NCBI GenBank assembly: GCA_945905925.1
Contig: CAMDQN010000057.1
Location: 1-41,360, forward strand
Length of the DNA: 41,360 nucleotides
From: Singulisphaera sp. GP187
Lineage (GTDB): Bacteria > Planctomycetota > Planctomycetia > Gemmatales > Gemmataceae
Direction of reading: 5' to 3'
The notes beneath the pieces were generated by a model. That model was not told the origin of the DNA and ran no database searches. It worked only from the letters and a program-made list of their open reading frames with translations. The position numbers and the translations under genes were made by a program. Positions within the stretch are counted from its first letter, which is position 1, and each line of letters starts with the position of its first letter. Shown here piece after piece: positions 286-27,023 of the stretch.

Positions 286-2871
286 ATGCGACACGCTCGA
301 CCCTCGAATCGCTTTGTCCCCTGCGCGAGTCTGGCCGCGCCGGCCGCGTTGATTCTGTTGGTTGCGTTCGGCCTGCCCGCTCAAGAGAAGCCCAGTGACG
401 GCCAGTTCGCTCCCGCCGTTGCGCAGGCCGAACCCCCATCGTTCAATCGTGAAGTCGTGCCGATACTCAGCCGACTCGGGTGTAACGCCGGCGGTTCGTG
501 TCACGGCATCGTGAAGGGGCAAGAAGGCTTTCGGCTCTCCCTCTTCGGCGCACAACCGGCGCAGGACTTCGAGCGCCTGACGCGTGAATTCGGCGGTCGG
601 CGGCTCGACCGTCACCGACCCGATAGCAGCCTCATCCTGATGAAGGCAACCGGGCAAGTTCCGCACGGCGGCGGCAAGCGAACCGAGGTCGGTAGCCGCG
701 ATTACCAAATCCTGCGCGGGTGGATCGCGAGCGGCGGGCGACTCGATGATGCCGCGAAGGCACGCGTCACGCGGTTGGCCGTTGACCCGGCGGAACTGCT
801 CCTAAAGGTCGGCGAGTCGGGGCGCTTGAAGGTCACCGCGACCTACGCCGACGGCACGACCGCGGACGTGACCCACCTCTGCCGTCACGAAACGAATGAT
901 GCGGAAGTCGCGACCACCAACGCATCCGGCGTCGTTCAGGGGCGGCGAGTGGGCGACACGGTCGCCGTCATCCGGTACGGCGCCGAACCGGTTCTCGTGA
1001 ACTTGCTCGTTGTGCCGAAGGAGACGCGAAACGCGTTCCCCGATGTGAAGGCTCACTACGTCATCGACGAGCAGGTTCTCGCCAAACTGCGCGCGATGGA
1101 TCTGCCGCCCGCGGCGCTCTGCGACGACGCGACCTTCCTCCGCCGGCTTTACCTCGACGTGACCGGCTTTCTGCCGCCACCGGAGGAGGTGCGCGCGTTC
1201 CTCGCGGACAAGACCGCCGACAAGCGGAACAAGAAGATCGACGAGGTACTCGCGAAGCCGGGGTACGCCGAAATCTGGGCCGCGAAGTTCAGTGACCTGA
1301 TCAAGCCGGTCGAGCGCGGCAACGACGGCGGCAACAACCTCGTTGGCGGTCAGGTACTCCGAATCCGGTTCTACGAGTGGCTGCGGGCTCGCTTGGAAGA
1401 GAACACCCGATACGACCAGTTGGTCGAACGCATCTTCGTTTCGAGCAGCGTGGAAGGCCGGCCCGTTGAGGAGTGGATCAAGGAGTTTCAGGCGCTCCGC
1501 GACGAGGTGACCAAGAAGAAGGACAAGACACTCGGAACCGGACCGCTGCTATCGGTCTACAATTCGCGACGGACGCTCGACCTGTTCTGGGAGCGCGACG
1601 GTGCCACTGGCGTTACCGGCGCGATGCAGTTCGCCCACGCCTTTCTGGGGTTGCGGCTACAGTGCGCACAATGCCACCGGCACCCTTACGACACCTGGCA
1701 GCAAGACGATCTCCTCAGTTTCGCCAACTTCTTCACGGCGGTGAACACCGGCGGGTCGCGGAAGAACAGCCCGGAGGTCGAAACGCATAAGGAGAAGCTC
1801 CAACCCGAACTGAAAGCGTGGGCCGAGGAACTCAAGACACTGAGCATGTCGAAGGACGCAGCCGACAAGAAGAAGGCATCGGAGCTGCAAGCGAAGATCG
1901 CGGCGACACAGGCTCCGTTCGCGACCGAGGTCGCACCGCTGAACGCTGCACCGGTCGGGTCGGTGCGCGTGACAAGCCCACTGGGGGCGCAATCATCGAG
2001 CGTGGCGCGGCTTCTCGGCGATAAGGCGCCGAGCGAGTTGGCCCCCGGTCAGGACCGGCGGAAGCTCGTGATGGAGTGGCTGCGGAAGCCCGATAACCAC
2101 TACTTCGCACGCGCCATCGTGAATCGCGTTTGGGAGCATTACATGGGTCGCGGTCTGGTCGATCCGGCTGACAACCTTTCGCCGCTGAACCCACCATCAC
2201 ACCCCGCCTTGTTGGATGCGTTGTCGCGAGACTTCATCAAGAGCGGTTACGATCTGAAGTGGCTGCACCGCACGATTCTCCAGAGCCGCACCTATCAGCA
2301 GAGTCACGAGGCTCACAACGCGAGCGGACGGGACACCCGCAACTACTCGCGGTTTGCGCTCCGCCGACTGCCGGGTGAGGTGATTCTCGACGTGGTAAAT
2401 CAGGCGACCGGCGCGAAGGAGAAATACCCGGCGACGTGGATGTTCCGCGAAGGCGAGCGCGCGGTCCTCACCGCGGGCGTGATGGTGGACGTCTACAACT
2501 TCTACAACATCAACGACCCCTTCCGGTATCTCGTCTTCGGTCGGCAACTCCGACGCACCAACGTGCAGTGCGATTGCGAACAGGGGCGCGACGTGGCCCT
2601 TCCGCAACTGTTGTTCCTCGCCAATCACGAAGAGGTTCGCCGCAAGATCACCGCTGACGACGGCCGCGTGGCACTGCTGGCGAACAACGACAAGTTGACC
2701 ACCGAGCAGCGGATCGAAGAACTGTTCCTGGCCGCACTCGGCCGCCTTCCGAGCGCCGACGAAATCAAGGCGGGTTTGGAGTACGTCAAATCGAGCGCCA
2801 CCCCGCGAAAGGGACTCGAAGACGTGCTCTGGAGTTTGGTGAACACACGCGAGTTTCAGTTGAACTATTAA
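286..2871 (+). CDS. Planctomycete cytochrome c / Big2 / DUF1549-DUF1553 exported protein
   Basis: An 861-residue exported protein of the large planctomycete family that joins a cytochrome-c-like PSCyt1 segment to DUF1549 and DUF1553. Its biochemical role is not established; redox function is inferred from the haem motifs. The start at 286 has GGAGG a few bases upstream and begins a hydrophobic signal segment (about residues 14-31). A haem-type motif CNAGGSCH lies at residues 66-73, then a bacterial Ig-like Big2 domain (about 163-243), then DUF1549 (about 258-430). A second motif, CAQCH, sits at 460-464, and DUF1553 follows from about 595, including the typical NRVWEHYMGRGLV segment. The first haem motif has five residues between the cysteines, not the usual two. 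The DUF1501 gene follows after 56 bp on the same strand, the usual partner, so the two are probably co-transcribed. Family confidence is high. Confidence 0.93.
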   Translation: MRHARPSNRFVPCASLAAPAALILLVAFGLPAQEKPSDGQFAPAVAQAEPPSFNREVVPILSRLGCNAGGSCHGIVKGQEGFRLSLFGAQPAQDFERLTREFGGRRLDRHRPDSSLILMKATGQVPHGGGKRTEVGSRDYQILRGWIASGGRLDDAAKARVTRLAVDPAELLLKVGESGRLKVTATYADGTTADVTHLCRHETNDAEVATTNASGVVQGRRVGDTVAVIRYGAEPVLVNLLVVPKETRNAFPDVKAHYVIDEQVLAKLRAMDLPPAALCDDATFLRRLYLDVTGFLPPPEEVRAFLADKTADKRNKKIDEVLAKPGYAEIWAAKFSDLIKPVERGNDGGNNLVGGQVLRIRFYEWLRARLEENTRYDQLVERIFVSSSVEGRPVEEWIKEFQALRDEVTKKKDKTLGTGPLLSVYNSRRTLDLFWERDGATGVTGAMQFAHAFLGLRLQCAQCHRHPYDTWQQDDLLSFANFFTAVNTGGSRKNSPEVETHKEKLQPELKAWAEELKTLSMSKDAADKKKASELQAKIAATQAPFATEVAPLNAAPVGSVRVTSPLGAQSSSVARLLGDKAPSELAPGQDRRKLVMEWLRKPDNHYFARAIVNRVWEHYMGRGLVDPADNLSPLNPPSHPALLDALSRDFIKSGYDLKWLHRTILQSRTYQQSHEAHNASGRDTRNYSRFALRRLPGEVILDVVNQATGAKEKYPATWMFREGERAVLTAGVMVDVYNFYNINDPFRYLVFGRQLRRTNVQCDCEQGRDVALPQLLFLANHEEVRRKITADDGRVALLANNDKLTTEQRIEELFLAALGRLPSADEIKAGLEYVKSSATPRKGLEDVLWSLVNTREFQLNY

Positions 2872-2927
2872 CCCCGTTTAGCCGCGACCCGAAGGGGAGC
2901 GCGGTGGCAGCAGAAGGAGCCTCTCCC

Positions 2928-4274
2928 ATGAAGCCCGGTTGCCGCGAGTACCATCGGTTCAGCCGCCGCGACGCTCTACGGGTCGGCGGCGCCACGTTCT
3001 TCGGCCTCACTGTGCCGCAACTCCTACGCGCCCGCGAGGAGGCGCCCGCCGCCAAGCCCGCGAAGGCGAAGCAAGTTCTACTCGTGTGGATGTACGGCGG
3101 GCCGTCGCAGATCGACATGTTCGACCTGAAGCCGGGTTCCAAGAAGGACGCGGTGCGACCGCTGTTCAAGCCGATCCAGACCGCGCTGCCGGAACTTCAC
3201 GTCAGCGAACTGCTGCCGCGAATGGCCCGCATCGCGGACAAGTATACGGTGCTGCGCTCGATGTGGGCCGGGTCGCTCCACTGGACCCACTCCGCCCTCG
3301 CGTACATGCTCTGCGGTAACGCGCGGACGCCCAATTCGCTCGCCTACCCGACGATGGGTTCGGTGGTTGCGAAGGTGAAGGGTGGCCCGGCCGACATGCC
3401 CAACTACATCGCGCTGAACATGTTCCCCGCGAAGGGCGCCGACGGAGTGCCCGGTGCCGGCGATTGCTTCCTCGGGGCCGCCTACGAACCGCTCGTTTTG
3501 CAACCCGACGCCAGCGCCAAGAACCCGATGGCCGAGATGCTCGTCGCTCCGCACCTCGACGTGAAGACATTCGAGCGGAAGACGAACTTGCTGAAAGCGT
3601 TCGACCAGAAACTGCGGAGCATGGACCGGCTCGACCCGCTCGTTGAGGCGATGGACCAGCACCAGCAGAAGGCGTTCGACATGCTGCGGTCGCCGAAGAT
3701 TCGCGAAGCGTTCAACCTGACGAAGCTCTCCCCGAAGGTGCTCGACCGCTACGGCCATTCCAAGCATCCTTACGGCGGCGGGGACCAGAACCAGAGCCTG
3801 CTCGTCGCGCGGCGACTGATCGAAGCCGGCGCGCCGTTCGTTCACGTCGATTACCAGAACTGGGACTGGCACGGGGCGCCGGAGAACGTGTCGGGGCAGC
3901 CGAAGTTGCTGCCGCAGTGGGACACGGGGATGTCCGCGCTGTTGGAGGACATGGACGATCGCGGGCTGCTGGAAAACACGATCGTCATCGCGATGGGCGA
4001 ACAGGGCCGCGGGCCGCTGGACCGGAATCACTGGAGCGGTACGCAGTTCGTGCTGCTGGCCGGCGGCGGCTTCGCCCGCGGGCGGGTCGTGGGGGCCACC
4101 GACGCCGACGGCATGAAGCAAACCGAGGACGAGTGTTTCCCCGAAGACTTGGCCGCGACCATCTACGGGCAACTCGGCATCGATCCGCACGCGCAACTGA
4201 TGGCTAACGGCGAACGACCGGTTCGCATCGTGGACAAGGACAACATCAAAGTCATCAAGAAAGTCCTCGCGTAA
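2928..4274 (+). CDS. DUF1501 family protein
   Basis: A 448-residue DUF1501 protein. The family has an alkaline-phosphatase/sulfatase-like fold and in planctomycetes normally sits directly after DUF1549/DUF1553 genes, as here. Its substrate is unknown. The N-terminus carries a Tat-type signature (SRRDALRVGGATFFG, about residues 12-26). The hallmark GGPSQIDMFDLKPG follows near residue 55, and HVDYQNWDWHG lies in the second half. The ATG at 2928 is preferred over a GTG at 2904 because AAGGAG lies about nine bases before it and the Tat motif is then close to the N-terminus. Export is inferred from that motif; the haem protein upstream is likely exported too. Confidence in the family is high, in function low. 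Confidence 0.93.
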   Translation: MKPGCREYHRFSRRDALRVGGATFFGLTVPQLLRAREEAPAAKPAKAKQVLLVWMYGGPSQIDMFDLKPGSKKDAVRPLFKPIQTALPELHVSELLPRMARIADKYTVLRSMWAGSLHWTHSALAYMLCGNARTPNSLAYPTMGSVVAKVKGGPADMPNYIALNMFPAKGADGVPGAGDCFLGAAYEPLVLQPDASAKNPMAEMLVAPHLDVKTFERKTNLLKAFDQKLRSMDRLDPLVEAMDQHQQKAFDMLRSPKIREAFNLTKLSPKVLDRYGHSKHPYGGGDQNQSLLVARRLIEAGAPFVHVDYQNWDWHGAPENVSGQPKLLPQWDTGMSALLEDMDDRGLLENTIVIAMGEQGRGPLDRNHWSGTQFVLLAGGGFARGRVVGATDADGMKQTEDECFPEDLAATIYGQLGIDPHAQLMANGERPVRIVDKDNIKVIKKVLA

Positions 4275-15900: not shown

Positions 15901-18455
15901 TCCGCAAGCATCACCTGAGTGGGCGTGTTGCCCACGGTGAAACGGGTGGCGTTGGCGAACGTCAGCGGGCCGCCGACGTTGGTTGTGTTCAGGAAGACCG
16001 CGACGTTGCTGTCTCGCGAACTGGCGGTGACCATGTCGAGCCGGCCGTCCCCGTTCAGGTCGCCCAGCGTGACCGAGACCGGATCCCGGCTGTTGCCTCC
16101 GGCGTTGGGCGAGAACGTTTGCGGCGCGGCGTAACCACCGCCCTTGAGGGCCAGGAATACGTTGACGTTGTCGCTGGTTGTATCGATGGTTATCAGATCG
16201 CGGAGCCCGTCCTTGTTCAGGTCGCCGACCACCGGTTCGCGAGCGTCGCGGGTGCCGGCGCCGGAGAGTTGGAGGTTGGTGGCGGCAAGGAAGGTGCCGT
16301 CGCCCTTGCTGGTCGCACTGTTGACGGACCCGGTGAAGAACGAAAGCGTGTTGTCGCTGTTGGGCGGAGTGAGAGTGGGGGTGCCGTTGTTGACCGTGAC
16401 CAGGTCGTTGACGTTGTCGCCGGTGAAGTCCCCGATGGCGACGCCCAGTGGCGTCGCCCCGGTCGCGTAGGGCACGAGAGTGACGGTGCCTGTGTTCGCG
16501 GTGTACGTTCCGGTGAGAACCAGGCTATCGGTTCCGTTGAGCGTGAACTGGCTCGCGCTCACGCGGGTGATGAAAAAGGTGCCGTTCACGCCGGCCGACA
16601 ACCCGCCGACGCCTGCGATCGTGATCTGTTGCCCGGTGCGCAGCCCGTGGTTGGGGCTATCAATCGTGATGGGGGTGGCGGAGACGGCGGTGTCCGTGGC
16701 GTTCGTCACGCCGGTGATGATGCCGGGCAGCGCGAGCCACGTGCCCGTGTTGACATCCCCAGTCAGCGCACCGGCCGGTGGCACCCCGACCAACTGGAAT
16801 GTGTTGGCCGTGACACCAGTGATGTAGAACGTGCCGTTGGCGTTGGGGTTCGGCACAGTGGCGGGGGTAGCGTCGAGGTAGGTAGCGCCGCTGATGATGA
16901 CCCGCTGCCCGTTGACCAATCCGTGACCGTTGCTGGTGATGGTGGTCATGGTGGCGGTGCTCACCGCCGCGGAGATCAGTCCGGTCTGGAGTGGCGAGCG
17001 GGAAACCGCGCCACCAGCCAGTGCTCCGTTCACGTACACCAGTTCCGGCTGCGCCGTGCCAGTCCCGTTGAGATCCCGGAGTTGCAATCCGGTCGGGGAT
17101 GCGACCCCGGCCGTGATGACGTCGGTGGGCCGGAACGTGCCGGCAGCGCCGGCGGCGCCACCACCGTTGTTCAGGTACGCGACTAACTGCCCAGTGCTGG
17201 TCGTGGTGACGACATCGAGTCGCCCGTTTCCGTTGGCCCGAATCTGACCAACCCCCAGCGAGGTGACTGCGGGGCCGGCAAGGAACGTCGCGCCGAAGGT
17301 GTGGGCCGTGAGGGTCGAGGTGTTCAACAAGATGCTCACGCCAGTGGCACCACCGACCACGATGTCGTTGTCGCCGGCGCCATTGAAGTCGCCGACGGCG
17401 ATACTCGACGGGACCGTCAGGTCTGCGCCCGCGAGTCCGACGATGATCGGCGTGGGGGTAATCACGAACGTGCCGTCGTTGTTGCCCGTGAGGACGTTGA
17501 TGACGTAATCGGTGTTCAGGGTGGAGTTCGCGACGACGAGGTCCACGCCCGCGCCCACGCCGAGTTGCCCGACTGCGAGTGCCACGGGCGAGTCGCCGGC
17601 CGCGAAGTTGGTCGCGGTGCTGAACAACAGTTCGCCCGCCGTGGTGTTCTGGTTCAGGAACACGCTGACGTTGTCGGTCCCCTTGTTGGCGACCACCACA
17701 TCGCGTTTGCCGGCCACACCCGAGATCAGTTGTGTCACGAGGATCGCGCTCGGCGCCGCGCCGGCCGGCAGTGCGAGGGTCAGGTCAGCGACAGACGAGA
17801 ACCCGCCAAGCGGGTCACCGAGGTACACCGAGACGTTGTTGAACCCGCTGCTGGCGACGAGGAGGTCGTTGAGGCCGTCGTAGTTCACGTCTGCGGCGGC
17901 GGCGGCGGTGGGCATGTAAGCCGTCGCGCCCTGGAGCGGCAGTCCGACTGTCTGGACCGCGCCGAGGTTTGAGCCGGTGAGCGAGACCGTCGAGAGATTG
18001 CCGCGCCCGCTGTTGGCGACGACGATCTGACCCGGTGCAGCGAGCGTGTCGGTCGGCACGACAGCGTCCGCGATCTGGTCCCCACGTAGGAACAGCGAGT
18101 ACGCCCCGGCCGTCAACCCCGCAGGCGGGGTGATGGTTGCCTGGAACGTTACGGGGTTGTAATTGATGTCGGCGTTAACGATAGGGAAGGCCGTGCCGTC
18201 GGAGCCGAACAGCCGGTAGTTGACGGCTAGGTCCGCACCGGACACGTCGATTGAGTACGAAACCACGATCGGCGTAGTTGGCGTGGTGAGGCTTCCGCCG
18301 GTCGCAGGGACGACGCTCAGAACCGTCGGGGTCGCGGGCACCTCGCGCGGTTCCAGTGCTTCCAACGCAAGTTGGTGGCGTGGGCGTGCTGGGGTCTTCT
18401 TTGAGATCGGCCGCTTCTGGGAACTGACCAGGCGGAAGAACTTGAACCAGTTCAT
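6951..18455 (-). CDS. Giant secreted/surface protein: FG-GAP, BNR propeller and DUF4214
   Basis: A 3,834-residue protein, probably exported or on the cell surface; its function is unknown. The ATG at 18455 (GAGAAAGG upstream) gives a basic N-terminus followed by LEALEPREVPA at residues 31-41, a variant of the LEPR-type motif of planctomycete exported proteins. Approximate order: FG-GAP/VCBS-like calcium-binding-type repeats such as GDLNGDGRLD and DVNNDGDLD (120-1080), interrupted by two HGL-G-I-NGTF modules (500-660); a jelly-roll carbohydrate-binding-like domain (1110-1345); an Ig-like domain (1345-1450); a long BNR/sialidase- or sortilin-like propeller region with Asp-box-like SxDxGxTW motifs (1455-2385), containing a glycine run near 2010; a DUF4214-like segment (2420-2670); more FG-GAP repeats (2695-3140); and further DUF4214-like segments to the C-terminus. 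I noticed only one cysteine. No frameshift was seen, and the terminator at 6890 closes the gene. Adhesion or matrix roles are inference. Confidence 0.9.
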   Translation of the reverse strand: MNWFKFFRLVSSQKRPISKKTPARPRHQLALEALEPREVPATPTVLSVVPATGGSLTTPTTPIVVSYSIDVSGADLAVNYRLFGSDGTAFPIVNADINYNPVTFQATITPPAGLTAGAYSLFLRGDQIADAVVPTDTLAAPGQIVVANSGRGNLSTVSLTGSNLGAVQTVGLPLQGATAYMPTAAAAADVNYDGLNDLLVASSGFNNVSVYLGDPLGGFSSVADLTLALPAGAAPSAILVTQLISGVAGKRDVVVANKGTDNVSVFLNQNTTAGELLFSTATNFAAGDSPVALAVGQLGVGAGVDLVVANSTLNTDYVINVLTGNNDGTFVITPTPIIVGLAGADLTVPSSIAVGDFNGAGDNDIVVGGATGVSILLNTSTLTAHTFGATFLAGPAVTSLGVGQIRANGNGRLDVVTTTSTGQLVAYLNNGGGAAGAAGTFRPTDVITAGVASPTGLQLRDLNGTGTAQPELVYVNGALAGGAVSRSPLQTGLISAAVSTATMTTITSNGHGLVNGQRVIISGATYLDATPATVPNPNANGTFYITGVTANTFQLVGVPPAGALTGDVNTGTWLALPGIITGVTNATDTAVSATPITIDSPNHGLRTGQQITIAGVGGLSAGVNGTFFITRVSASQFTLNGTDSLVLTGTYTANTGTVTLVPYATGATPLGVAIGDFTGDNVNDLVTVNNGTPTLTPPNSDNTLSFFTGSVNSATSKGDGTFLAATNLQLSGAGTRDAREPVVGDLNKDGLRDLITIDTTSDNVNVFLALKGGGYAAPQTFSPNAGGNSRDPVSVTLGDLNGDGRLDMVTASSRDSNVAVFLNTTNVGGPLTFANATRFTVGNTPTQVMLADVNNDGDLDLLVAHNGGGGFGGGNNRGVTIRLGNGDGTFQAQSEIADASGRRATALGIADFNQDNNLDIAVTNDNTPGSVRLLTGAGNGTFTNGGDFTVGSNPTDLTVADFDNDGFTDIATVSRNNTTTDNVSVLLNSLGTGFQTAVNTTVTSGLPLQSLAALNVNSDAFIDLVVTSRAYDPPGKGSPPPPPNPINNTHVLLGTGDGGFATNIDDYSVDIPTTTPTMGAATPVPSRVAIVSDPFRLLSTFNIGGTTVSVNLIRNGNFDARDLTNEQGNLTGWNTYKLRDTTRGSAGAWGVQTLGTSPLSGTTVPPPSGKYQAMLDQQNLQPFSGNNNPNADDTYAGSHAIYQDIMVPLNASSVKLSFSLYLNSATAWTDAANNPALDYRTGAPNQQVRVDIMSTTGDLAFPNATLGVLGVTNVGSNGNVLLNVLQTLPTDALTGTRNLTGVNAINLSAFAGMSIRLRIAATNNQGKLIVGLDNVRIQTVFTDTIQPSLDAINLRNPSFLAGPNTLEQSTDPTIVGLLSDNGSINNVKQVTFDLGNNGFGGADDVNITAFDANGYFTFTPTTLLSGIQTVPVQVVDQAGQAVTQNFQFVLQGPSLTNWASAGPGPIDISTAQLNYTTVSGKITGIAMDPSDPSGNTFYVGSANGGVWKTTDGGRGYLAVTDNVTDPSGQRVNVSVGGLTLGVNPAGTVKAIYAATGVDDVAFSSRSSIGVLRSLDNGRTWAVLNNANVFTGARVSKIVVDPSNPDIVYVSVASWDTPNKQPNVFRTGNGTSVNPTWVSLLTRNNMFVGNTPLSGAGLPGTMSDPITSVTDLLVDPFNPQRLIIGMGNIGYLPTSGCTGVWLSTDSGANWLLQQGGDSPDLASNLSLAGSFRQFELQGKVPNGAEPFLLIYGFVGPKIGRITLSQGTGRVGDEKFVYALIADASPGTNPGQFDNGGYMGLYKSKNNMLDFTSVMLKQPGFMHNRFTENYVDIGLVGDEGSTVGALSVDPSNPNVVYVGGSRRFDDTTTPQHALIRVDTGNMQDADYVGDATLPVGFPNRLPNDGDDRDKASAARNALGIYPVNLSGIGPIGGVGYNGEGVYWYDIEQGEASDSGMLRRLPTAIHRITFDTQGRLLFGTENGLYRGTALGFGYDFDSAYDGILDGGFGGGGGGGFGGGGPAFNPTGMTITELNGNLQITDVTSVAIDPTNRNTLYISASGVGTATSTAGPGAWQSTGLTGPTVTGAGDLGIPNSFQIVAANLAPGAPIDSVTTLYRTWQYNRNSQSLIPEVSIDAGGTFSTSNSAGISAQDTSNIAPVLAINTKKVVVGADTFDELLFGTNKVYLSRTSGNVFDQIPGSDLGAAGAEKYSALAFSVFNGVYLAGTDTGRVFRTSATSGFTNITSNLTAVVGTAFRINGITVDPRDPTGNTIYVMLGTPLGSRSVYRTTNGGAGANAWSAVPGSGTGFLPLAAAYKLVIDPRPSTGALNGRFYVGTDRGVFTSVDNGASWQSLGNGLPAAPVVGLEFNPDLETLAAATQGRGVFVLSTARLGPAVVTATPGTPVTTGGLTTVTVTFDAPVDPRTFTADANNTARAQMTLIPLTSNAFVTNRINALLQKYIPSAVGSQAAIDFGRGLYFNSYNPTTGAIAQTTSVFLGGVPINATRPDGEFLFISYLVADQGYYNSAAGSGTLTAMNTAYVEKLYMDLFGRTSVGDPQTAGIVSYLNANGSMSQPARLAVARQLTGLDPQNQFGDLNPLSREFHTNVVADLFNRHLARNYPAVGASSDEITAKVTLLQTGPPIVPPGFPATIPLGTQLLYVTAGVLSTTEAYQKMGNDYALPAGVNTTAIATANLTGAVDSFNVPILDLIVGGSDDTIRIFQGRAGGGYDLTPTLTLTLPGGAAPGDLVIADFNNNGRLDLAVANSGLAESASNNTLSLFLNTRSVITAASWASTAGGRVTITANNTLILGQSVAISGITGSSVPNGYNGTFVVTSATATSFTYALTINPGTATLNNAATLSFGARTDLNAGGQPVGIAAGDVDGDSIADLVVANQALYDNNTPANGADDYYTASVLLGNGAAGIGNGTFTGVTVGSATRRYQVANNDATVTVSEVLSPTDIALGNVTGDSRNDLIISGATGVTVLTNTTTVVGTPTVSLLANRLTGATPVVVTSVAVGDLDADADVDIVATADTAAGQVLVFQNAGASVFTPTTAAVGANPRSVRLGDMNGDARPDLVVANDSLTDPALSILFNTTTGAGTLPLTFESRLAYPVTGVLPAAIALGDTNQDGVLDVVIGYEGSEFVSQIVGEQQGILKVATDRNWLDSLSRSLSGRPLNQAERNALPTILATSAPAVLLGPTGSVSPLSITPNDSTNLTYTATFAPQLFDGTYGFYIIPNILNIVPKDFIDQNGTYANTGNQFNQNANAANGEVPTSTNVGDLFGVTLTVNHTDSGRFIAAAYTDLLGRAPDNPSFANQNDTILEPARLASLNSVARSLIGTNEEVDRLMTMYYQQYLRRVPTGAELVPARNYILSGGTFGPVAAFLIDTPEYFASAGGTNAGWVNRAYMDTLGLANVASLPAGVNLVNSLNAGTITRTQVANILVVQDAWYQRTVSGYFVALLGRTPVRNADPALDETTPLVPLLRTARAAGQPTGDQQVVLALVSSPEYLRVHGNSNFEWLKSIYTTALGRPSILTTQPSTPITAASWSAGTVTITANNVLVPSQNVTVAGIAGSLIPNGYNGTFTVVSATATSFTYALTANPGTATVTNATAVGEFNGVLTTVLGNYFAARETILGQLVSSLEYRNRQYTSYYADLIPTAGPVRVPTQAELDFAENLVYQPYGQRLELVQAYITSLNEYFLLSGSGSSNSGWLTNVYSDLLNQSVTGNLAAQRLAYLDSQTPNATNGLTTQDLANARLLVAYDITNGILNGVAIATDFRRLLVNRIYVTYLGRAATIPERDFWVARMNNPAIADTEQTIIRLLLRGEEYFRFRAL
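7625..7840 (-). repeat. Intragenic module repeat, copy A (giant gene)
   Basis: This stretch encodes a module of about 70 residues beginning ITAASW and containing NGYNGTF and SFTYAL, at residues about 3538-3610. Copy B at 9895-10112 is closely similar in both DNA and protein. The copies sit between different neighbouring domains, which suggests duplication of a module within the gene. Confidence 0.75.
9895..10112 (-). repeat. Intragenic module repeat, copy B (giant gene)
   Basis: The partner of copy A, at residues about 2781-2853, inserted among FG-GAP repeats. Shared runs include NGYNGTF and SATATSFTYAL. More distant relatives of the same module (GLVNGQRVIISG, GLRTGQQITIAG) lie near residues 500-660. 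The module resembles small beta domains found in tail-fibre-like and surface proteins; I did not assign it to a named family. Confidence 0.75.
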
Positions 18456-19413
18456 CGGAGAGGCCTTTCTCTTCGGAGTGTAACGTTTATTTGCGCGGAC
18501 CGGCGCCGCGGCGCCGGTGCGAATCGGGTGGAGGGGACGCCCGTTGTTTCGTGACCGGGAATCAACCCGGCCGCGCCATCGGGGAAGCAAACGAATGAAC
18601 TACTGGGACGAGTCAGACACTCCACCGCTTGGGAGCCACACGAATGGGGGTACGCCCCGTCGGTGTAGCGATCGCGTAACAGTTCAGCAAACCCCTCGGT
18701 GAATACAAGGTTTCGCGCGGGCGGTGTCCGGGGTGCCGGACCGGTGGGATTCGTCACGGGACGAAAAGGCAGACACTGTCGATGTCGCGATAGTCGCGGA
18801 AAAATGAACAAACGATGAACGTTTGCGGCGCACGGGTACTGCGCGCCGCAAAGGGCCCAGCGACTGTCGGTTTTTCGGTCAATCACGTCCACCCGCTCCG
18901 GTCCCTTCGTTCGCGGTGTGTTCCGCCCACACGTCGTCGGTTGCGCCGTCTCGTCTCATCGTGTGGTTGCGGTCCGCGCCTTCGATCAGAAACGGAAAAC
19001 CAGAGCCCGCGAGACACCAGTTCGTGCGGTGATCAGTGCGGGCGCCGCGTTCGGTTCCCGGCTCGCAACCGGCGCGCGCGGCACCACCGGTACGGCCGGT
19101 CGAACCGACGTAGGCAGACATCTCTTCGCGTCCGCCGGTGTTGAAGATGCAGCGCGATGGAAGGATTGGGCGAAGTGATCTTTCCGGCTTTTCCCTGAGG
19201 CTTTACCATCTCGTTACCTTGTTGTCTCGTCTGAATCAGTGAGGAACTGCCCGTCGGGCAACTGGGGGTTGCGCTCCAGGTTAATGAACAGCCGCCATAC
19301 AAGGGCTGAAGACAGAAAACCAATTCGTAGCCTATGGGCGCAAGTCCCAGGCTCGCGACTCTCTCCCGGGATCGCCGCGCCGGCGGTCTGTTCTACTTGT
19401 TCGAGGAGCCACG
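18456..19413. other. Long divergent intergenic region between two giant genes
   Basis: About 960 bp separate the divergent starts of the 3,834- and 2,130-residue proteins. Short open frames exist on both strands, but their translations are arginine-rich and lack family likeness, so I call none of them. Visible structure: a perfect 20-bp palindrome at 18499-18518; a small inverted repeat CAAACG/CGTTTG at 18809-18825 overlapping the direct repeat ATGAAC; and a TGCCCG/CGGGCA hairpin near 19249. Promoters for both genes must lie here, but no strong -35/-10 pair was found. Confidence 0.6.
18499..18518. repeat. Perfect 20-bp palindrome upstream of the giant gene
   Basis: ACCGGCGCCGCGGCGCCGGT is fully self-complementary. 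It is centred about 54 bp before the giant gene's start codon, so it probably falls in the promoter or 5' leader. It could be an operator or an mRNA hairpin. There is no T-tract. Confidence 0.6.
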
Positions 19414-22400
19414 ATGCGACGCGCGACGGTTTGGTTGATGGGTGGGTTCCTCGCGACCCTTGCCGGCACGGTGCTCCTGACACCGAACTCCACGGCCGGT
19501 GACATCGGGTTCATCGAGGACTTCGCGCTCGCGAAGGACCGCACTATTGCGCTGAAGCAACTCATCCCGGGCAGCGAAGACTTCTACTACTACCACTGCC
19601 TGCACTACCTGAACTCGGGGCAGTTCGAGAAGATCGAAGCGCAGACGAAGTTGTGGCACGAGCGCCACGGGCAGACGGCCCGGCTCACGGAGATCCAGAC
19701 GCGGCACGCGCTGCTCGCCTACGAGAACGATCCGAAGAAGGCGCTCGACTACGTGCGCTCGCGGCTCGGACTGCACTTCGACCACCAGAAGGAGGTTGTC
19801 GGCGTCGCGGTCAACCTGCCGACCGCACTCGACCAGAAGCTCATCAGCCGCGACACACTGAAGGCCGAGTCGTTGCGTCGGTGGGGGACGCTCGACAACT
19901 TCGAGGCGAGTGCGCTGGAGTGGCTCGCGTCGGATGCGCTGTCGTGGGAGAACCGGCGCCAACTGTTGTCGCGGCTCACGCGGCCCGACATCGCGAACCT
20001 GCCGAAGCTCGTCTCGGACGATTTGTCCGCACCGCACCCGCAGTCGTTCGGCGCGTACAACGTTCACCGCCAGATGACGCTGACGCAACTCGAAGACCTC
20101 GTGAAGCTGAAGCCCGGCGTGCTGAACGAGTCCGCGTTCGTCTCGGCTTACGTGACGAAACTTCAGCCCAGCACCGACGACGACTGGAAGCGCGACCGCA
20201 AACTCGCGAAAGCGTTCCTCGATAGGCTCCAGGTTTTCGCGGACCGGCTCGACCCGGTTCACAACCCGTTGAAGGCGCACATCGCGTACCACCGGCTTGT
20301 GTTCGACCGCGCTGAGGGCACTTACAACAAGGACCGGTTGATCGACTACCTGAAACTGCCGCGTGGTCAGGCGTACATGCACCGCCGGTTGCTCGACTCC
20401 GAGTCCGCGCGCAAGTATCCTGCGAACCTCGGCGTCGATTACGCCGCGATCACGCTCATGCCGATCGTGGGCGACGACTCGCCGCTGGTTCGCAGTTACC
20501 TGCTTCACTTCCTGACGGACGCCGCGACCACGAAGGATTTCGACTCCTACATCGACGACGTGGTGTTGAAGCACCTCTTCGCGGAGTCGAAGTTGACTAA
20601 CGGCGTCGGTGACGCGGAGCGTTGGGCTTCGCTGATTCCACCCGAAGCGCTGAAGTCGCTGAAGGATCGCGTGGACATCGACTTCGCGTTCACCAACAAG
20701 ACCGATGTCGGCGTGGACGAACCGATTCGACTCGAAGTCTTCGTGAAGAACGCGCCGACGCTGCTGATGAAGGTGTACGAGATCAACGCAAGGCACTTCT
20801 ACCGCACGCACGGCCGTGAGATCGACACCGACATCAACCTCGACGGTTTGGTCGCGAACGCGGAGCGCGTCATCACCGGGAATGCGGACCCGTTCCGCCG
20901 CTCGGCGCTCACGCTGGAACTGCCGGACCCGAAGGGCCAACCCGGGTTCCCGGAAGCCGGGCGCGCCGGCGTGTACGTGATCGACCTCATCGGCGGCGGC
21001 AAGAGCAGCCGTGCGTTGATCCGCAAGGGCCGGCTGTACCCGATCGTGAGCACCGGCACCGCGGGCCACGTCGTCCGTGTCGTGACTGAGAAGAACCAAC
21101 CCGTGAACGACGCGGCCGCGTGGCTCGGCGCGGTCGAATACAAGGCCGACAAGGACGGCACGATTCACCTGCCGTTCAGCACGAACCCGGGCCGGCGGAA
21201 CATCGTCCTGTCGCGTGGCGACTTCGCGTGCCTCGATTACTTGAACCACCAGGCCGAAGACTTCCGCCTCACCGCGGGCATCCACATCGACCGCGAGAGC
21301 CTCATTTCGCAACGCATCGCGCCGATCTTCATCCGCCCCGGTTTGAAGCTTAACGGCAACCCGGTGTCCGTGAAGTTGCTCGAAGAAGTGCGCGTTCGCA
21401 TCACCTCGACCGATCACGACAACGTGCCGTCCTCGACCGAAATTCCGAATTTCAAACTATTCGAGGACCGCGAATCGATCCACGAGATTCGCGTGCCCTC
21501 AAGATTGTCGAAGTTGGAAGTCACGATCAGCGCGAAGGTGAAGGTTCTCAGCACCGGCAAGACGGTGGACTTGATCGCGTCGCAGTCGTTCGCGGTGAGT
21601 GAGTTCGCACGCACCGACAAGATCGAAGACCTGCACCTCGCGAAGTTCGGCAGCGATTATGTCATTGAACTTCTCGGCCGCACCGGGGAACCGAAGCCGG
21701 ACCGCCCGGTGACGCTCAGCATCAAGCACCGCGAGTTCAAGGAAGCGGTCCACGTCCTCCTCAAGAGCAACGCTCAGGGCCGTGTGCTTCTCGGTTCGTT
21801 GGGCGACGTGACCTCGGTTACCGCGACCAACCCCGACGGTATCGCGCACACCTGGACCCTGTTAAGCGACCGGCACACCTATCGCCAACTGATCCATGCG
21901 AAGGCAGGCGATGCGGTCACGCTCCCGCACCTCGGCGCCGCGGGCAAGCCGGCGCGCGAAGAACTCGCGCTGTTCGAGGTTCGCGGTGACATGATCCGTA
22001 CCGACAAGTTCGCGCTGCTCTCAATCGAGAAGGGTTTGATCGAGATTCGCGGCCTTGCGCCCGGCGACTACGATCTTTACCTGAAGCGTTCGGGGGAGAA
22101 GATTCGGATTCGCGTGGCAGAAGGCGCCGCGCAGGACGGCTACGTGCTGAACAACGTGCGGCAACTTCAACTGCCCGGTCTGAAGCCGGTGCAGATCGAA
22201 ACCGTGACCGCGGACAAGGACAACGTTACTGTCAAGTTGCAGAACGCGTCGAAGTTCTCGCGAGTCCACATCTTCGCGACGCGTTATCAGCCGGCGTTCT
22301 CGGCGTTCGGCAACTTCGCAAAGGTGCGCGACACGGAGCCAGAAGGCGCGTTCCCGCTGCACGCGGAATCGGTGTACTTGACCGGCCGCAACATCGGCGA

Positions 22401-25400
22401 CGAGTACCGCTACGTGCTCGAACGGCGCAGCCAGAAAAAGTACCCCGGGAACATGCTCGCGCGCCCGGAGTTGCTCCTCAACCCGTGGGCCGTGCGCTTG
22501 ACTGAAACCGGCGAGCAAGTCGCGATCGGCGGCGATCAGTTCGGACGCGGTGGCGGTGTCGTGCCCGGTTCGTCCTTGCCGCCAGCGGCGCCACCGGCGC
22601 CGGAGCCGAACGTCGGGCCGCTCGTCGGCGACTTCGCCGATCTCGATTTCCTGTACGACGCCTCCGCGGTCGCGATGAACCTCAGCGCCGACAAGGACGG
22701 CATCGTTACGCTGCTGCGCAAGGACGTCGGACCGCACGCGATGATTCACGTGGTCGCCTGCGACCCGCTGAACACCACGTACCGTTCGGCGAGCCTCGCG
22801 GAAGCGCCGGCCAACTTCGTCGATCTGCGCCTCAAGAACGGCCTCGATCCGACGAAGCACTTCACTCAGCAGAAGCAGGTCACAATCGCGGACCCGAATA
22901 AAGTGTTCGTGCTCGATGACGTCGCGGGCAGCAAGTTCGAGGCTTACGACAGCCTCGCGAAGGTGTACAGCCTCTACGCGACTATCTCGAAAGACCCGAA
23001 GTTGGCGGAGTTCGCGTTCATTCTCCGGTGGCCGACGCTCAAGATCGAACAGAAGAAGGAACTGTACTCGAAGTACGCGTGCCACGAACTCAGCTTTTTC
23101 CTGTCGAAGAAGGACCCTGAGTTCTTCAAGACCGTCATCAACCCGCACCTCGCGAACAAAAAGGACAAGACGTTCCTCGATCACTACTTGCTCGACGGCG
23201 ACGTGAAGGGCTTCATGCAGCCGTGGGAGTTCGGTCGGCTGAACGTGCCGGAGCGTGTTCTCCTTTCGCAGAAGATCGCGGGCGAACCGGTCAAGACCGC
23301 GCGCCACCTAGAAGACCTACTCCGTCTCTTGCCGCCGAACGCGGACCGCGACCTGTTTCTGTTCAACGTCGCGGTGGAGAACACCGCGCTGGGCGCGTCC
23401 ACGAGCGATCCGTTCGCCAACGCGAAGTACCCCCCGCCGCCGCCGGTGTTGACGCTGCCGCCCGGCCCGGCGCCGCCGAGCGAGCCGTCCGCGCCGCGCC
23501 CGTCTGCGGGTCCCCCGCCAGGCGGGTTCCCCGGCACGCCGCCCGCGGAGAGGCCCGGTTTCGGGCAGAAGGGCAAAGATGGTCGCGGAGGGGAAGCGAA
23601 GAAGGACGCCAAGGAAACCGGCGACCCGAAGGGCGGCGACAAGGGCGACCCGGACGACGCCAAGAAAGCGCGCGATGTCGAGGACCGCTATTACCGCGAT
23701 GACCGCGAGAAGTTCGTTCCGCGCGCGCTGTACCGCAAACTCGACCCGACGATGGAGTGGGCCGAGAACAATTACTACAAGTTGCTCATTCAGGAGCAAA
23801 CCGGCGACTTGGTGAAGGTGAATCGCTTCTGGGCCGACTACGCGGCGCACGACGGGAAGGGCACCTACCTGTCTCGCAACCTGCCGATCGCATCGAGCAA
23901 CTTCACGGAGATGATGTTCGCGCTCGCAATGCTCGACCTGCCGTTTGAACCCGCGAAGCACGAGGTGAACTTCGCGCAGGGCAAGATGACTTTGAAGCCC
24001 GGCTCGAAGATGATCGCGTTCCACGAAGAAGTGCGCCCGGCCGAAGGGAAAGGCGGGCAACTGCCAATCCTCGTGAGCCAGAACTTCTATCGCCACGGCG
24101 ACCGGTTCCGCGAAGAGGGCGGCGAGAAGTACGACAAGTTCGTGACCGAAGAGTTCGTCGTCCACACCGTCTATGGTTGTCAGGTGGTCGTGACGAACCC
24201 GACATCGTCGCGTCAGAAGTTGTCGGTGTTGTTGCAACTGCCGGTCGGCGCGCTCGCGGTCGCCGGCGGGCGCCAGACGAAGGCCGTGCAGCTCGCGCTG
24301 GAGCCGTATCACACGCAGACCATCGACTACCTGTTCTACTTCCCGATCCCGGGCAAGTTTAACCACTTCCCGGTTCACGTCGCGAAGAACGAGTTATTCG
24401 TGACGAGCGCGCAACCGTTCCAGTTCAACGTGGTGGCGAAGGCGACGAAGCTCGACACGACAGCGTGGGACTACGTCTCGCAACATGGCACGAACGACGA
24501 AGTACTCGCGTTCATGATGCGCGAAAACGTGCGTGCGCTGAACCTCGACAAGATCGCGTTCCGCATGAGGGACCGCGCCTTCTACTCGACGGTCATTCAA
24601 CTGCTTCACGATCGGCACCTGTATCAGAGTACGCTGTACAGTTATGGGGTTCACCACGCGGACGCCGCGACCGCCAAGCAGTTCCTGATGCACCAGGACG
24701 CGTTCGTGGCCCAGACCGGCGGCCCGATTGATTCGCCGCTGCTGTTCGTCGATCCGGTCTCGCGTCACACATACGAGCATCTCGAGTACAAGCCGCTCGT
24801 AAACGCTCGCGCACACTCGCTGGGCAAGCGCCGGCAGATCGTCAACGACCGGTTGTTCGAGCAGTATCACAAGATGCTGAAGGTGATGTCGTACCGCAAC
24901 GAACTGAACGACACAGACCTGCTTGCGGTGACGTACTACTTGTTGCTGCAAGACCGCATCGACGAAGCGTTCGACACCTTCGCGCGTGTGAATCGCGACA
25001 AGGTGACGACGAAGATGCAGTACGACTACTGCTCCGCGTATCTGGAGATGTTCGACGGCGACCTGAAGAAGTCGCGTGCGATCGCCGCGAAGTACACCGA
25101 GTACCCGGTGGACCGCTGGAAGACCACGTTCGCGACGATCATTGCCCAGATCGACGAGATCGAGGGGAAGGGCGGGAAACTGATCGACCCGAAGGACCAC
25201 GTGCAGAACCAGGGCAATCTGGCCGCGACCGAACCGGGCTTTGAGTTCGTGATTGATGCGAAGTCGATCAACCTCACGTGGCAGAACCTCGACACGGTGA
25301 AGGTGAATTACTACCCGATGGACGTGGAATTGCTGTTCAGCACGAGTCCATTCGTGCAGCAGAGCGGCGGGCAGTTCGCGTCGATCCGGCCGAACATGAC

Positions 25401-25806
25401 GAAGGAGATTTCGCTTCCGAAGGGCGTAAACAAACTCGCGGTGCCGCTGCCGGAGCAGTTCGCGAGCAAGAACGTTCTCGTGGAAATCGTGGGTGCTGGC
25501 AAGACGCGTGCGGTGCCGTACTACGCGACCGCGATGACCGTGAACGTGACGGAGAACTATGGTGCGCTTCGCGTGGCAGACACCGCGGCGGGCAAGGGCT
25601 TGCCGAAGGTGTACGTGAAGGTGTACGCGAAGTTAGCCGACGGCAGTGTGAAGTTCCACAAGGACGGGTACACGGACCTTCGCGGTCGTTTCGACTACGT
25701 TTCGGTGAACACGCCGGAGCGTCAGGCGATCGAGAAGTTCTCGGTTCTGGTGCTAAGCGAAGACCGCGGCGCGCTGATTCGCGAGGTGGCGCCTCCGCAG
25801 CGGTAA
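19414..25806 (+). CDS. Very large secreted protein of unrecognised family (2,130 aa)
   Basis: I do not recognise a named family. The ATG at 19414 has GAGGAG about eight bases upstream and starts a signal peptide (hydrophobic to about residue 22, then NSTAGD). Residues 30-410 look largely helical. About 420-900 look like successive beta-sandwich units, with segments such as GRLYPIVSTGTAGHVVRVVTE and DKDGTIHLPFST that recall macroglobulin-type (alpha-2-macroglobulin) domains. No thioester GCGEQ-type motif is present. A proline/glycine/lysine-rich linker covers about 1337-1425. Residues 1425-1980 are mixed, and the last 100 residues look like another beta domain (KVYVKVYAKLADGSVKF). No membrane segment follows the signal peptide, so a periplasmic or secreted protein is likely. 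It is followed after 146 bp by a TlpA-like thioredoxin on the same strand. The macroglobulin likeness is a weak inference. Confidence 0.9.
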   Translation: MRRATVWLMGGFLATLAGTVLLTPNSTAGDIGFIEDFALAKDRTIALKQLIPGSEDFYYYHCLHYLNSGQFEKIEAQTKLWHERHGQTARLTEIQTRHALLAYENDPKKALDYVRSRLGLHFDHQKEVVGVAVNLPTALDQKLISRDTLKAESLRRWGTLDNFEASALEWLASDALSWENRRQLLSRLTRPDIANLPKLVSDDLSAPHPQSFGAYNVHRQMTLTQLEDLVKLKPGVLNESAFVSAYVTKLQPSTDDDWKRDRKLAKAFLDRLQVFADRLDPVHNPLKAHIAYHRLVFDRAEGTYNKDRLIDYLKLPRGQAYMHRRLLDSESARKYPANLGVDYAAITLMPIVGDDSPLVRSYLLHFLTDAATTKDFDSYIDDVVLKHLFAESKLTNGVGDAERWASLIPPEALKSLKDRVDIDFAFTNKTDVGVDEPIRLEVFVKNAPTLLMKVYEINARHFYRTHGREIDTDINLDGLVANAERVITGNADPFRRSALTLELPDPKGQPGFPEAGRAGVYVIDLIGGGKSSRALIRKGRLYPIVSTGTAGHVVRVVTEKNQPVNDAAAWLGAVEYKADKDGTIHLPFSTNPGRRNIVLSRGDFACLDYLNHQAEDFRLTAGIHIDRESLISQRIAPIFIRPGLKLNGNPVSVKLLEEVRVRITSTDHDNVPSSTEIPNFKLFEDRESIHEIRVPSRLSKLEVTISAKVKVLSTGKTVDLIASQSFAVSEFARTDKIEDLHLAKFGSDYVIELLGRTGEPKPDRPVTLSIKHREFKEAVHVLLKSNAQGRVLLGSLGDVTSVTATNPDGIAHTWTLLSDRHTYRQLIHAKAGDAVTLPHLGAAGKPAREELALFEVRGDMIRTDKFALLSIEKGLIEIRGLAPGDYDLYLKRSGEKIRIRVAEGAAQDGYVLNNVRQLQLPGLKPVQIETVTADKDNVTVKLQNASKFSRVHIFATRYQPAFSAFGNFAKVRDTEPEGAFPLHAESVYLTGRNIGDEYRYVLERRSQKKYPGNMLARPELLLNPWAVRLTETGEQVAIGGDQFGRGGGVVPGSSLPPAAPPAPEPNVGPLVGDFADLDFLYDASAVAMNLSADKDGIVTLLRKDVGPHAMIHVVACDPLNTTYRSASLAEAPANFVDLRLKNGLDPTKHFTQQKQVTIADPNKVFVLDDVAGSKFEAYDSLAKVYSLYATISKDPKLAEFAFILRWPTLKIEQKKELYSKYACHELSFFLSKKDPEFFKTVINPHLANKKDKTFLDHYLLDGDVKGFMQPWEFGRLNVPERVLLSQKIAGEPVKTARHLEDLLRLLPPNADRDLFLFNVAVENTALGASTSDPFANAKYPPPPPVLTLPPGPAPPSEPSAPRPSAGPPPGGFPGTPPAERPGFGQKGKDGRGGEAKKDAKETGDPKGGDKGDPDDAKKARDVEDRYYRDDREKFVPRALYRKLDPTMEWAENNYYKLLIQEQTGDLVKVNRFWADYAAHDGKGTYLSRNLPIASSNFTEMMFALAMLDLPFEPAKHEVNFAQGKMTLKPGSKMIAFHEEVRPAEGKGGQLPILVSQNFYRHGDRFREEGGEKYDKFVTEEFVVHTVYGCQVVVTNPTSSRQKLSVLLQLPVGALAVAGGRQTKAVQLALEPYHTQTIDYLFYFPIPGKFNHFPVHVAKNELFVTSAQPFQFNVVAKATKLDTTAWDYVSQHGTNDEVLAFMMRENVRALNLDKIAFRMRDRAFYSTVIQLLHDRHLYQSTLYSYGVHHADAATAKQFLMHQDAFVAQTGGPIDSPLLFVDPVSRHTYEHLEYKPLVNARAHSLGKRRQIVNDRLFEQYHKMLKVMSYRNELNDTDLLAVTYYLLLQDRIDEAFDTFARVNRDKVTTKMQYDYCSAYLEMFDGDLKKSRAIAAKYTEYPVDRWKTTFATIIAQIDEIEGKGGKLIDPKDHVQNQGNLAATEPGFEFVIDAKSINLTWQNLDTVKVNYYPMDVELLFSTSPFVQQSGGQFASIRPNMTKEISLPKGVNKLAVPLPEQFASKNVLVEIVGAGKTRAVPYYATAMTVNVTENYGALRVADTAAGKGLPKVYVKVYAKLADGSVKFHKDGYTDLRGRFDYVSVNTPERQAIEKFSVLVLSEDRGALIREVAPPQR

Positions 25807-25952: not shown

Positions 25953-27023
25953 ATGCGCAAATTGTTCGCTCTTGCCGTACTCGCCGGGCTGGTCGCTCCG
26001 GTCGTAGCCCAGGAGCCGAAGAAGGAGTCCGCACTCAAGGTCGGCGACAAAGCCCCCGCGATCAAAGCCACCAAGTGGCTCCAGGGTGCCGAGGTCAAGG
26101 AATTCGCCGAGGGCAAGACCTACGTCATGGAGTTCTGGGCCACGTGGTGCGGGCCGTGCATCGTCATGATGCCGCACATGGCCGAACTGCAGGCCGAGTA
26201 CAAGGCGAAAGGCGTCACGTTTATTGGGTTCACCAAGAAAGACCCCAACAACACGGAGGAGAAGGTCAAGACGTTCGTCGAGAAGCGAGGCCCGAAGCTC
26301 GCGTACACCTTCGCCTACGCCGACGACAAGGACACCTACGACGCGTGGATGACGGCCGCCGGGCAGGGCGGGATTCCGTGTTGCTTCGTCGTCGATAAGA
26401 CCGGCAAGATCGCCTACATCGGCCACCCGATGTACCTCGACGTGGTGCTGCCGAAGGTCGTCGCCGGGAAGTGGACCGCGGCCGACCTCGAAGGCGTGAA
26501 GAAGATCGAAGAGGAAGTGGACGCGGTGTTCAAGGCAACCGGCGACAAAGACCCGGAAGTGTTCCTGAAGACGCTCGGGGAGTTCGAGAAGAAGTACCCG
26601 GAACTGTCAAGCATCCCGTACTTCCACAGCGCGCGCCTTGGCTCACTCGTGAGGGCCAAGAAGACCGATGAGGTGAAGAAGGTCGCGGAGACGCTGCTCG
26701 CGAAGGGTGTCAAAACTGACGACAGCGGGTTGGTCAACACCGTGACGCGGACGCTCGTGCTGTTCCCGGACGCGATCGCGAACAAAGGTCTGCACGCGAC
26801 CGCACTGAAGGCGGCCGAGGCCGGGCTGAAGGTGGCCGGCGACAAGGACGCGATCGCGCTGTTCTTCGTGGCTGAGGCGCATTTCATCGGCGGCGACAAG
26901 GTGAAGGCGAAGGACTTCGGCGCGAAGGCCGTGGCCGCAGCCGACGGGCAACTGAAAGAGCAGATCGAGACGCGAGTCAAACGCTACGACGAAGAGAAGA
27001 AGGAAGAGAAGAAGGACAAGTAA
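25953..27023 (+). CDS. TlpA-like periplasmic thioredoxin-fold protein with C-terminal extension
   Basis: A 356-residue exported protein. The signal peptide is MRKLFALAVLAGLVAPVVAQ, probably cut after residue 20. The TlpA/ResA-type thioredoxin domain (about 28-170) has the active site WCGPC (Cys66, Cys69) and a cis-proline segment GIPCCFVVD, which carries two further cysteines where family members often have threonines. Such proteins reduce or exchange disulfides in the periplasm. Residues 180-356 are an alpha-helical, lysine-rich extension with possible TPR-like repeats, ending in a highly charged EEKKEEKKDK tail. AGAAGGG precedes the ATG. The neighbouring 2,130-residue protein has few cysteines, so a dedicated redox partnership is not obvious. 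Confidence 0.92.
   Translation: MRKLFALAVLAGLVAPVVAQEPKKESALKVGDKAPAIKATKWLQGAEVKEFAEGKTYVMEFWATWCGPCIVMMPHMAELQAEYKAKGVTFIGFTKKDPNNTEEKVKTFVEKRGPKLAYTFAYADDKDTYDAWMTAAGQGGIPCCFVVDKTGKIAYIGHPMYLDVVLPKVVAGKWTAADLEGVKKIEEEVDAVFKATGDKDPEVFLKTLGEFEKKYPELSSIPYFHSARLGSLVRAKKTDEVKKVAETLLAKGVKTDDSGLVNTVTRTLVLFPDAIANKGLHATALKAAEAGLKVAGDKDAIALFFVAEAHFIGGDKVKAKDFGAKAVAAADGQLKEQIETRVKRYDEEKKEEKKDK

Follow-up and report, generated by a model that had tools for sequence, protein, structure and literature searches.

A large exported planctomycete protein with a CAGE-like layout and sequence links to alpha-2-macroglobulins

The gene and the domain layout of its product

We analyzed a 41,360-nucleotide stretch of DNA (the window), which is one whole contig (CAMDQN010000057.1) of the 6.47-Mb assembly GCA_945905925.1 from Singulisphaera sp. 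GP187, and focused on the gene at 19414..25806 on its forward strand. The gene occurs only once in this assembly, starts with ATG and encodes a CAGE-like protein of 2,130 amino acid residues (aa) related to alpha-2-macroglobulins (A2Ms). Our results indicate that this protein is probably the planctomycete form of CAGE, namely an exported A2M relative of about 2,100 residues without a thioester, likely acting as a periplasmic subunit.

The open reading frame (ORF) was confirmed as real: the GC contents of its three codon positions are 0.62, 0.39 and 0.85, and a GAGGAG stretch lies ahead of the ATG. The first-pass annotation had placed the product in no recognized family; Pfam and NCBIfam returned no family at E<=10, a null result limited by the HMMER filters, which discard most matches above about 0.1, and the best match among PDB sequences had an E-value of only 0.38. 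The family comparisons below use a 65-row alignment consisting of the window protein and 64 near-full-length relatives, which were taken from 39 of 51 loci found by a pattern scan of genome contigs (12 with partial or broken frames were left out) and from 25 of 29 family ORFs added later (four shorter than 1,900 aa were left out). The rows had been preselected for lengths >2,050 or >1,900 aa, and the open frames of 64 rows, the window protein included, span 2,041-2,304 aa, the remaining one being 2,661 aa.

The structure was modeled with AlphaFold2 in two overlapping halves, aa 28-1180 (model 1; pLDDT 83.2, pTM 0.78) and aa 962-2130 (model 2; pLDDT 68.6, pTM 0.43). All features given here lie on the forward strand. 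A hydrophobic N-terminal segment forms the putative signal peptide (aa 1-28, 19414..19497; the cleavage site was placed without a tool prediction). Such a segment was found by a hydropathy criterion in 58 of the 63 scored members (two of the 65 rows were excluded, their upstream sequence being too short), which supports the export predicted for the window protein. Then come N-terminal helical arrays assigned by DSSP (aa 35-118 and 141-418, 19516..20667; CAGE domains 1-2 by layout), a first NIE plus MG3-like module (aa 421-612, 20674..21249; CAGE domains 3-4 by layout), where MG stands for macroglobulin, and tandem MG-like beta-sandwiches (aa 613-980, 21250..22353), which were placed by alignment with the A2M structure 4u48 and have no significant sequence match.

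A strongly conserved stretch (aa 985-1035, 22366..22518; mean identity to the window protein 0.71, length 51-53 in the 64 others) precedes a variable Gly/Ala/Pro loop, loop1, of low pLDDT (aa 1036-1075, 22519..22638; mean identity 0.26, length 36-48 in the 64 others), and strands past this loop close a split beta domain in the model (aa 1085-1127, 22666..22794). In the half-protein model, part of the conserved stretch itself has a low pLDDT, and this stretch may pack against the other half or another subunit.

The next domain is a beta domain split around a helical insert. It comprises, by DSSP, a beta flank (aa 1150-1178, 22861..22947; CAGE domain 10 by layout), part 1 of the insert (aa 1181-1322, 22954..23379; CAGE domain 11 by layout), a low-complexity, Pro/Gly/Lys-rich linker within the insert (aa 1336-1432, 23419..23709; length 29-143 in the 64 others), part 2 of the insert (aa 1459-1506, 23788..23931) and a second beta flank (aa 1517-1542, 23962..24039). 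The protein ends with a beta-sandwich that is MG7- or bMG10-like (aa 1553-1674, 24070..24435; CAGE domain 12 by layout), C-terminal helical arrays (aa 1685-1768 and 1798-1939, 24466..25230; DSSP) and a second NIE plus MG3-like module (aa 1942-2125, 25237..25788; CAGE domain 15 by layout). The two NIE plus MG3-like modules were located by hhalign and by comparison with the E. coli structure 4zjh.

The first-pass annotation had described an exported protein with a helical N-terminal part, a beta-sandwich middle and a Pro/Gly/Lys linker splitting it in two. Export and the helical part (aa 35-418) agree with the present results. The beta-sandwiches do start at aa 421; they are, however, not confined to aa 420-900, as they extend to about aa 1127 and recur at aa 1150-1178, 1517-1674 and 1942-2125. 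The linker is present, but it interrupts a helical domain.

Macroglobulin-type folds and the sequence link to A2Ms

Foldseek placed A2M or complement chains at the head of the lists for both halves (7q60, E 1.8e-12; 7akk_A, E 2.0e-7). With VIA-align 2, residues 155..1011 of the Salmonella A2M 4u48 were aligned with model residues 390..1105 (Z 13.8, rmsd (root-mean-square deviation) 12.3, 372 aligned), and E. coli NIE-MG1 (4zjh) was aligned with model residues 386-584 (Z 9.1, rmsd 5.9, 181 aligned) and also with the C-terminal end (Z 10.5, rmsd 6.2, 175 aligned). The sandwich at aa 1553-1674 (model 578..717) matched C3c and cobra venom factor (CVF) chains (Z 10.7-10.8, rmsd 2.6-2.9). Its assignment as an MG domain is not specific, however, since a Sec61-TRAP translocon chain matches it just as well (Z 11.3, rmsd 2.5). 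Taken together, the models support a macroglobulin-type fold with tandem MG domains in both halves; the macroglobulin likeness that had been suspected from the sequence, and for which a structural comparison with MG domains had been proposed, was thus borne out. A resemblance of the C-terminal helical arrays to the thioester domain (TED) was set aside, the alignments lying at 16-24 A rmsd.

The link at the sequence level comes from four bridging ORFs (L111-L114, 2,683-2,816 aa), which were found in four of 149 genomes of the window's phylum searched with a C-terminal profile and were the weakest matches of that search (E 4.3e-8 to 5.9e-6 per genome). A Pfam scan of three of them (L112 was left out) detected TPR, MG2, A2M_BRD and A2M in all three, TED_complement and bMG10 in two, and bMG3 above the cut-off in L114 alone. 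Three of the four contain the sequence CVEQ, L114 being the exception. The full family hidden Markov model (HMM) matched the bridging ORFs with E 1.2e-11 to 1.1e-16 (Z=6), with two matches in each, one close to the N-terminus and one at the C-terminus; in L114, it was the C-terminal module of the model that aligned with the N-terminal site. TPR-like repeats were detected by Pfam ahead of the C-terminal copy in L111 and L114, and weakly in L113. Since the bridging ORFs had been found via the C-terminal module, the N-terminal match is an independent one.

With L111 as the single template, hhalign aligned aa 427-601 with residues 532-701 (prob 95.7, E 8.3e-9) and aa 1950-2113 with residues 2515-2672 (prob 97.8, E 7.4e-13). 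Cross-matches between the N- and C-terminal copies had prob 88.3 and 42.8, and the controls with reversed profile or template gave no match (best E 0.053). The C-terminal profile match is contiguous from aa 1809 to 2113 (L111 2349-2672), its helical part by itself not being significant. Because the hhalign matches fall at corresponding places and the reversed template gave none, these profile comparisons indicate that the two NIE-MG3 modules are homologous to A2M-type modules at corresponding places. Alignments A1 and A2 dropped 5 of 40 rows as redundant, and A3 dropped 6 of 40.

Other comparisons gave weaker signals. Four A2Ms with PF00207 are encoded elsewhere in the same genome, and neither BLASTP nor HMM searches against them found anything. 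In hhalign comparisons with the family of one of them, L059, the best prob was 4.6 with a small alignment, and the C-terminal module reached prob 61.5 with a large one. L059 itself (C154:3000-12754 of the same genome) is a 2,014-aa A2M with the thioester motif YDCSEQ, and the other A2Ms of this genome carry YGCVEQ or YGCFEQ. An hhalign match of aa 995-1018 was dropped, as it aligns to a TPR repeat, and another of aa 797-876 (prob 33.8) was dropped as not significant, though it stands in the expected order. When the TED start, the A2M domain, bMG10 and MG2 were each tested window by window, no expected place ranked first; the windows expected for bMG10 took the fourth and fifth ranks (prob 0.6). 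The genomes with bridging ORFs have no family match alongside, and are too few to weigh (four versus at most 32 genomes).

Within the family, a Pfam scan of 35 members singly detected CarboxypepD_reg in nine (best E 4.2e-5), bMG3 in one (E 0.02) and TED in none at E<=1; four further members, the divergent L115 and L139 among them, gave no useful domain. CxEQ occurs in none of the 65 aligned members, in agreement with the first-pass observation that the thioester motif is missing.

These data also bear on the idea that the protein is a scaffold or adhesin built from generic Ig-like sandwiches and helical repeats, its A2M likeness being due to chance. The fold lists do contain Ig-like domains of titin, fibronectin and glycosidases, TM-scores are low, and aa 1553-1674 matches the translocon chain as well as it matches MG domains. 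On the other hand, A2M and complement chains lead both lists, and two separate modules are homologous to A2M-type proteins at matching N- and C-terminal positions; we therefore consider a chance likeness very improbable indeed.

Agreement with CAGE, family spread and neighboring genes

CAGE has been described in a 2025 preprint (PMC12485934) as a hollow D2 tetramer of about 1 MDa, enclosing some 600 nm3, from Tetrahymena and Dictyostelium. Tetrahymena CAGE1 (I7MLD7) has 2,216 aa and 15 domains without a Pfam domain, A2M was the top Foldseek match of its domains 4 and 6, and the Dictyostelium member is AbpF. Bacterial homologues, most with predicted signal peptides, are reported as most prevalent in the Planctomycetes-Verrucomicrobia-Chlamydiae (PVC) phyla, mainly Planctomycetota and Verrucomicrobiota (PMC12485934).

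On our models, the domain order is alpha, alpha, six beta, a linker-split helical domain, beta, alpha, alpha, beta. The alpha/beta layout agrees with the published map of CAGE1 with r = 0.997 over 11 segment lengths and a largest difference of 40 aa, and none of 200,000 random or 200,000 permuted layouts was as close; this agreement is strong but not blind, because the transitions and boundaries were picked after the CAGE paper was known, which counts against the identification. The window protein also falls within the CAGE chain length (about 1,900-2,400 aa), combines the lack of Pfam domains with A2M-like sandwiches and, by hydropathy, carries the signal segment of the bacterial members, and its relatives were found in the phyla named for CAGE. 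The first-pass suggestion of an undescribed family is therefore not upheld, since layout, size, signal peptide, absence of Pfam domains, A2M-like domains and phyla all fit CAGE (PMC12485934). The tie between CAGE-like proteins and A2Ms at the sequence level appears to be new, as it is not stated in the parts of the preprint text used here (PMC12485934) or in the literature searched.

The first-pass annotation had proposed to examine the taxonomic spread. Of the 51 pattern-scan loci, 50 are planctomycete-named (one Kuenenia), and one, of 40% identity, is titled Verrucomicrobiales. A search with the profile of residues 1440-2128 found 36 matching genomes at E<=1e-5 in a sample of 149 from the window's phylum; in four of them the match was to the bridging ORFs alone, and in two, G117 and G159, to short stretches alone. 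Among 21 near relatives, counting the genome of the window itself, eight had a match. The Verrucomicrobiales-titled locus comes from a metagenome-assembled genome (MAG), and in the phylum of this MAG 11 of 96 genomes matched, the MAG being one of them. Note that these counts record presence only, within two phyla, and make no comparison of prevalence with other phyla. Some genomes, such as that of Limnoglobus roseus, have two copies. No relatives were found on plasmids, and none of 24 pattern matches in viral contigs was confirmed as a relative.

Several members are unusual. Genome G187 (C61, C149, C246 and C276) has, besides three long ORFs of the CAGE-like type (1,770-2,403 aa), two short and separate ones (147 and 115 aa) whose matches are limited to the C-terminal NIE-MG3 part. 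The open frame of L116:1513-9495 (+) continues for about 520 aa beyond the N-terminal end of the family match, with no Pfam match at E<=1, and the genes of L002, L006 and L034 are broken across two frames in MAG contigs, possibly by assembly errors.

In the window, the gene upstream lies on the opposite strand; one same-strand gene follows downstream, and then the seryl-tRNA synthetase gene (serS) on the opposite strand. The same-strand gene (26007-27020, +) encodes a Redoxin/AhpC-type thioredoxin-like protein, which is outside the 15 largest neighbor clusters. Another giant gene adjoins (6951-18590, -), a 3,879-aa ORF with nine FG-GAP_3 stretches, perhaps encoding a surface protein. At the start of the window lie genes for a PSCyt2/PSD1 protein with a Big_2 domain (34-2868, +) and a DUF1501 protein (2904-4271, +), and the DUF1501 cluster was seen again at 15 of the 52 family loci that have wide flanks. 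No neighbor family occurs within 6 kb at more than 10 of 65 loci and there is no widely shared neighbor gene, the counts being lower bounds because many contigs are short.

The neighborhood is relevant to another explanation, in which the protein is an ordinary thioester-less Type II (MagD/YfaS-like) bacterial A2M acting as a non-covalent protease trap. MagD, without CXEQ, still traps tobacco etch virus (TEV) protease non-covalently after bait cleavage (PMC5764988, in part), and it protects against some peptidoglycan-targeting effectors of the type VI secretion system (T6SS) (PMC12663445, in part). However, the six-gene mag operon is not found at the window locus (the mag genes were not searched one by one), no neighbor family recurs widely, the window protein has no A2M-specific Pfam domain (the best among the 35 scanned members was the single bMG3 at E 0.02), a second NIE-MG3 module stands at the C-terminus, and the four PF00207 A2Ms lie elsewhere in the genome. 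We consider a Type II A2M very unlikely.

The candidate bait loop, possible roles and known systems

In human numbering, the split A2M domain that holds the bait region is MG6, and the CUB domain of A2Ms is split around the thioester domain. In the models, loop1 sits between the halves of a split sandwich, in what would be the topological place of the bait region, and we propose it as a new candidate bait loop; this place corresponds to about aa 1036-1075 and not to the linker at aa 1336-1432 that the first-pass annotation had picked. The bait-bearing domain is MG8 in the ECAM paper (PMC4498604, in part), and CAGE domain 8 is interrupted by about 130 residues (PMC12485934), so that, by analogy, the split CAGE domain 8 may correspond to the split bait-bearing domain of A2Ms. 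Likewise, CAGE domain 10, split around the helical domain 11, may correspond to the CUB domain split around the thioester domain. The flank at aa 1150-1178 of the window protein would then have a CUB-like topology and the insert at aa 1181-1322 would occupy the place of the thioester domain; no sequence match of this part of the insert to TED was found. On this reading, the window protein would have the domain order of the bridging A2Ms, namely helices, NIE-MG3, MGs, a split domain with a loop, a split domain with a helical insert, MG, helices and NIE-MG3.

No significant sequence homology was found between loop1 and the A2M bait region. A motif, IG[ILVT]GGG, was seen at or beside loop1 in four of the 65 members; in L111 and L113 it lies some 100 aa ahead of the A2M domain. 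As a bait-region sign shared with the bridging A2Ms it is suggestive only.

Several points weigh against our identification of the protein as CAGE with an A2M ancestry. The likeness to eukaryotic CAGE is one of domain map and described traits. The model of the second half is weak (pLDDT 68.6, pTM 0.43). TM-scores to the whole model are <=0.13 among the Foldseek matches listed, long alignments have large rmsd, and GH2 (glycoside hydrolase family 2) glycosidases, titin and other Ig-like proteins stand in the same lists; because the global TM-scores are low, the A2M likeness is one of domain by domain. No significant sequence homology to A2Ms was found for aa 613-1935, so that the middle resembles A2M by fold alone. 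Loop1 is variable in sequence and nearly constant in length (36-48 aa), and the glycine motif is in just two of the four bridging ORFs (not in L112 and L114), in none of the four A2Ms of the own genome and, in one family member, in another linker. Thirteen of the 21 near relatives, several of them incomplete, have no match, and therefore the gene is not fixed in the lineage.

If the protein is CAGE, it would assemble in the periplasm as a hollow shell of four chains, like that of Tetrahymena and Dictyostelium. The beta domain split by loop1 would retain the old bait-region arrangement, and the one split around the helical insert would retain the old CUB/thioester-domain arrangement. By analogy with MagD, the shell may enclose a protease or some other client protein non-covalently. 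Such a shell might serve as a periplasmic container or chaperone, with the same fold and cage, in which clients enter through openings of the shell, nothing is cleaved and the loops are spacers. The preprint names chaperone, container and protease trap as possible roles, discusses the first two and, in the text used here, reports no substrate density (PMC12485934). The absence of a thioester, the near-constant length of loop1 and the strong conservation of the residues preceding it, unlike a plain bait region, point in the same direction, whereas the position of loop1 at the place of the A2M bait region and the glycine-rich motif nearby in two A2M-type ORFs point away from it. We regard a container or chaperone as a serious contender, slightly ahead of a bait-triggered protease trap, which is possible with the balance leaning against it; a function other than these is rather unlikely. 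As a fuller scenario, CAGE, which occurs in bacteria and in numerous microbial eukaryotes, may be a bacterial A2M offshoot that kept the bait-loop and CUB-insert topology and, like some A2Ms of the window's phylum, a second NIE-MG3 at the C-terminus, lost the thioester and works as a cleavage-triggered non-covalent protease cage; this combination is doubtful.

CAGE is a megadalton shell of bacteria and microbial eukaryotes, and the position of the CAGE-like family beside thioester A2Ms by sequence, with the bridging proteins linking the two, suggests an origin for it. Loop1 offers a loop whose cleavage can be tested, and exported bacterial versions, such as the two copies of Limnoglobus roseus, offer material to work with.

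Compared with known systems, the window protein shares with bacterial A2Ms of type I (Salmonella 4u48, E. coli ECAM) the tandem MG-type domains, an NIE-MG1-like pair and, presumably, the split beta domain with a loop, whereas it has no thioester or recognizable thioester domain and has extra helical arrays and a second NIE-MG3 at the C-terminus. It shares the lack of a thioester with MagD of type II, which differs in its six-gene operon, none such being present in the window, and in its A2M domains, none of which Pfam recognizes in the window protein. The TPR-A2Ms (L111-L114) differ in having Pfam-recognizable MG2, BRD and A2M (in the three scanned), TED and bMG10 (in two) and CVEQ (in three of the four), all absent from the window protein, and share with it the homologous pair of NIE-MG3 modules, one close to the N-terminus and one at the C-terminus. 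Eukaryotic CAGE members generally have no signal peptide (PMC12485934), whereas most of the window family carry a putative one. In other traits the window protein is like CAGE: its length is near 2,200 aa, its layout is alpha-beta-alpha(split)-beta-alpha-beta, it has A2M-like sandwiches and no Pfam domains, and its relatives, predicted to be exported like most bacterial CAGE members, come from the phyla in which these are reported as commonest, Planctomycetota and Verrucomicrobiota.

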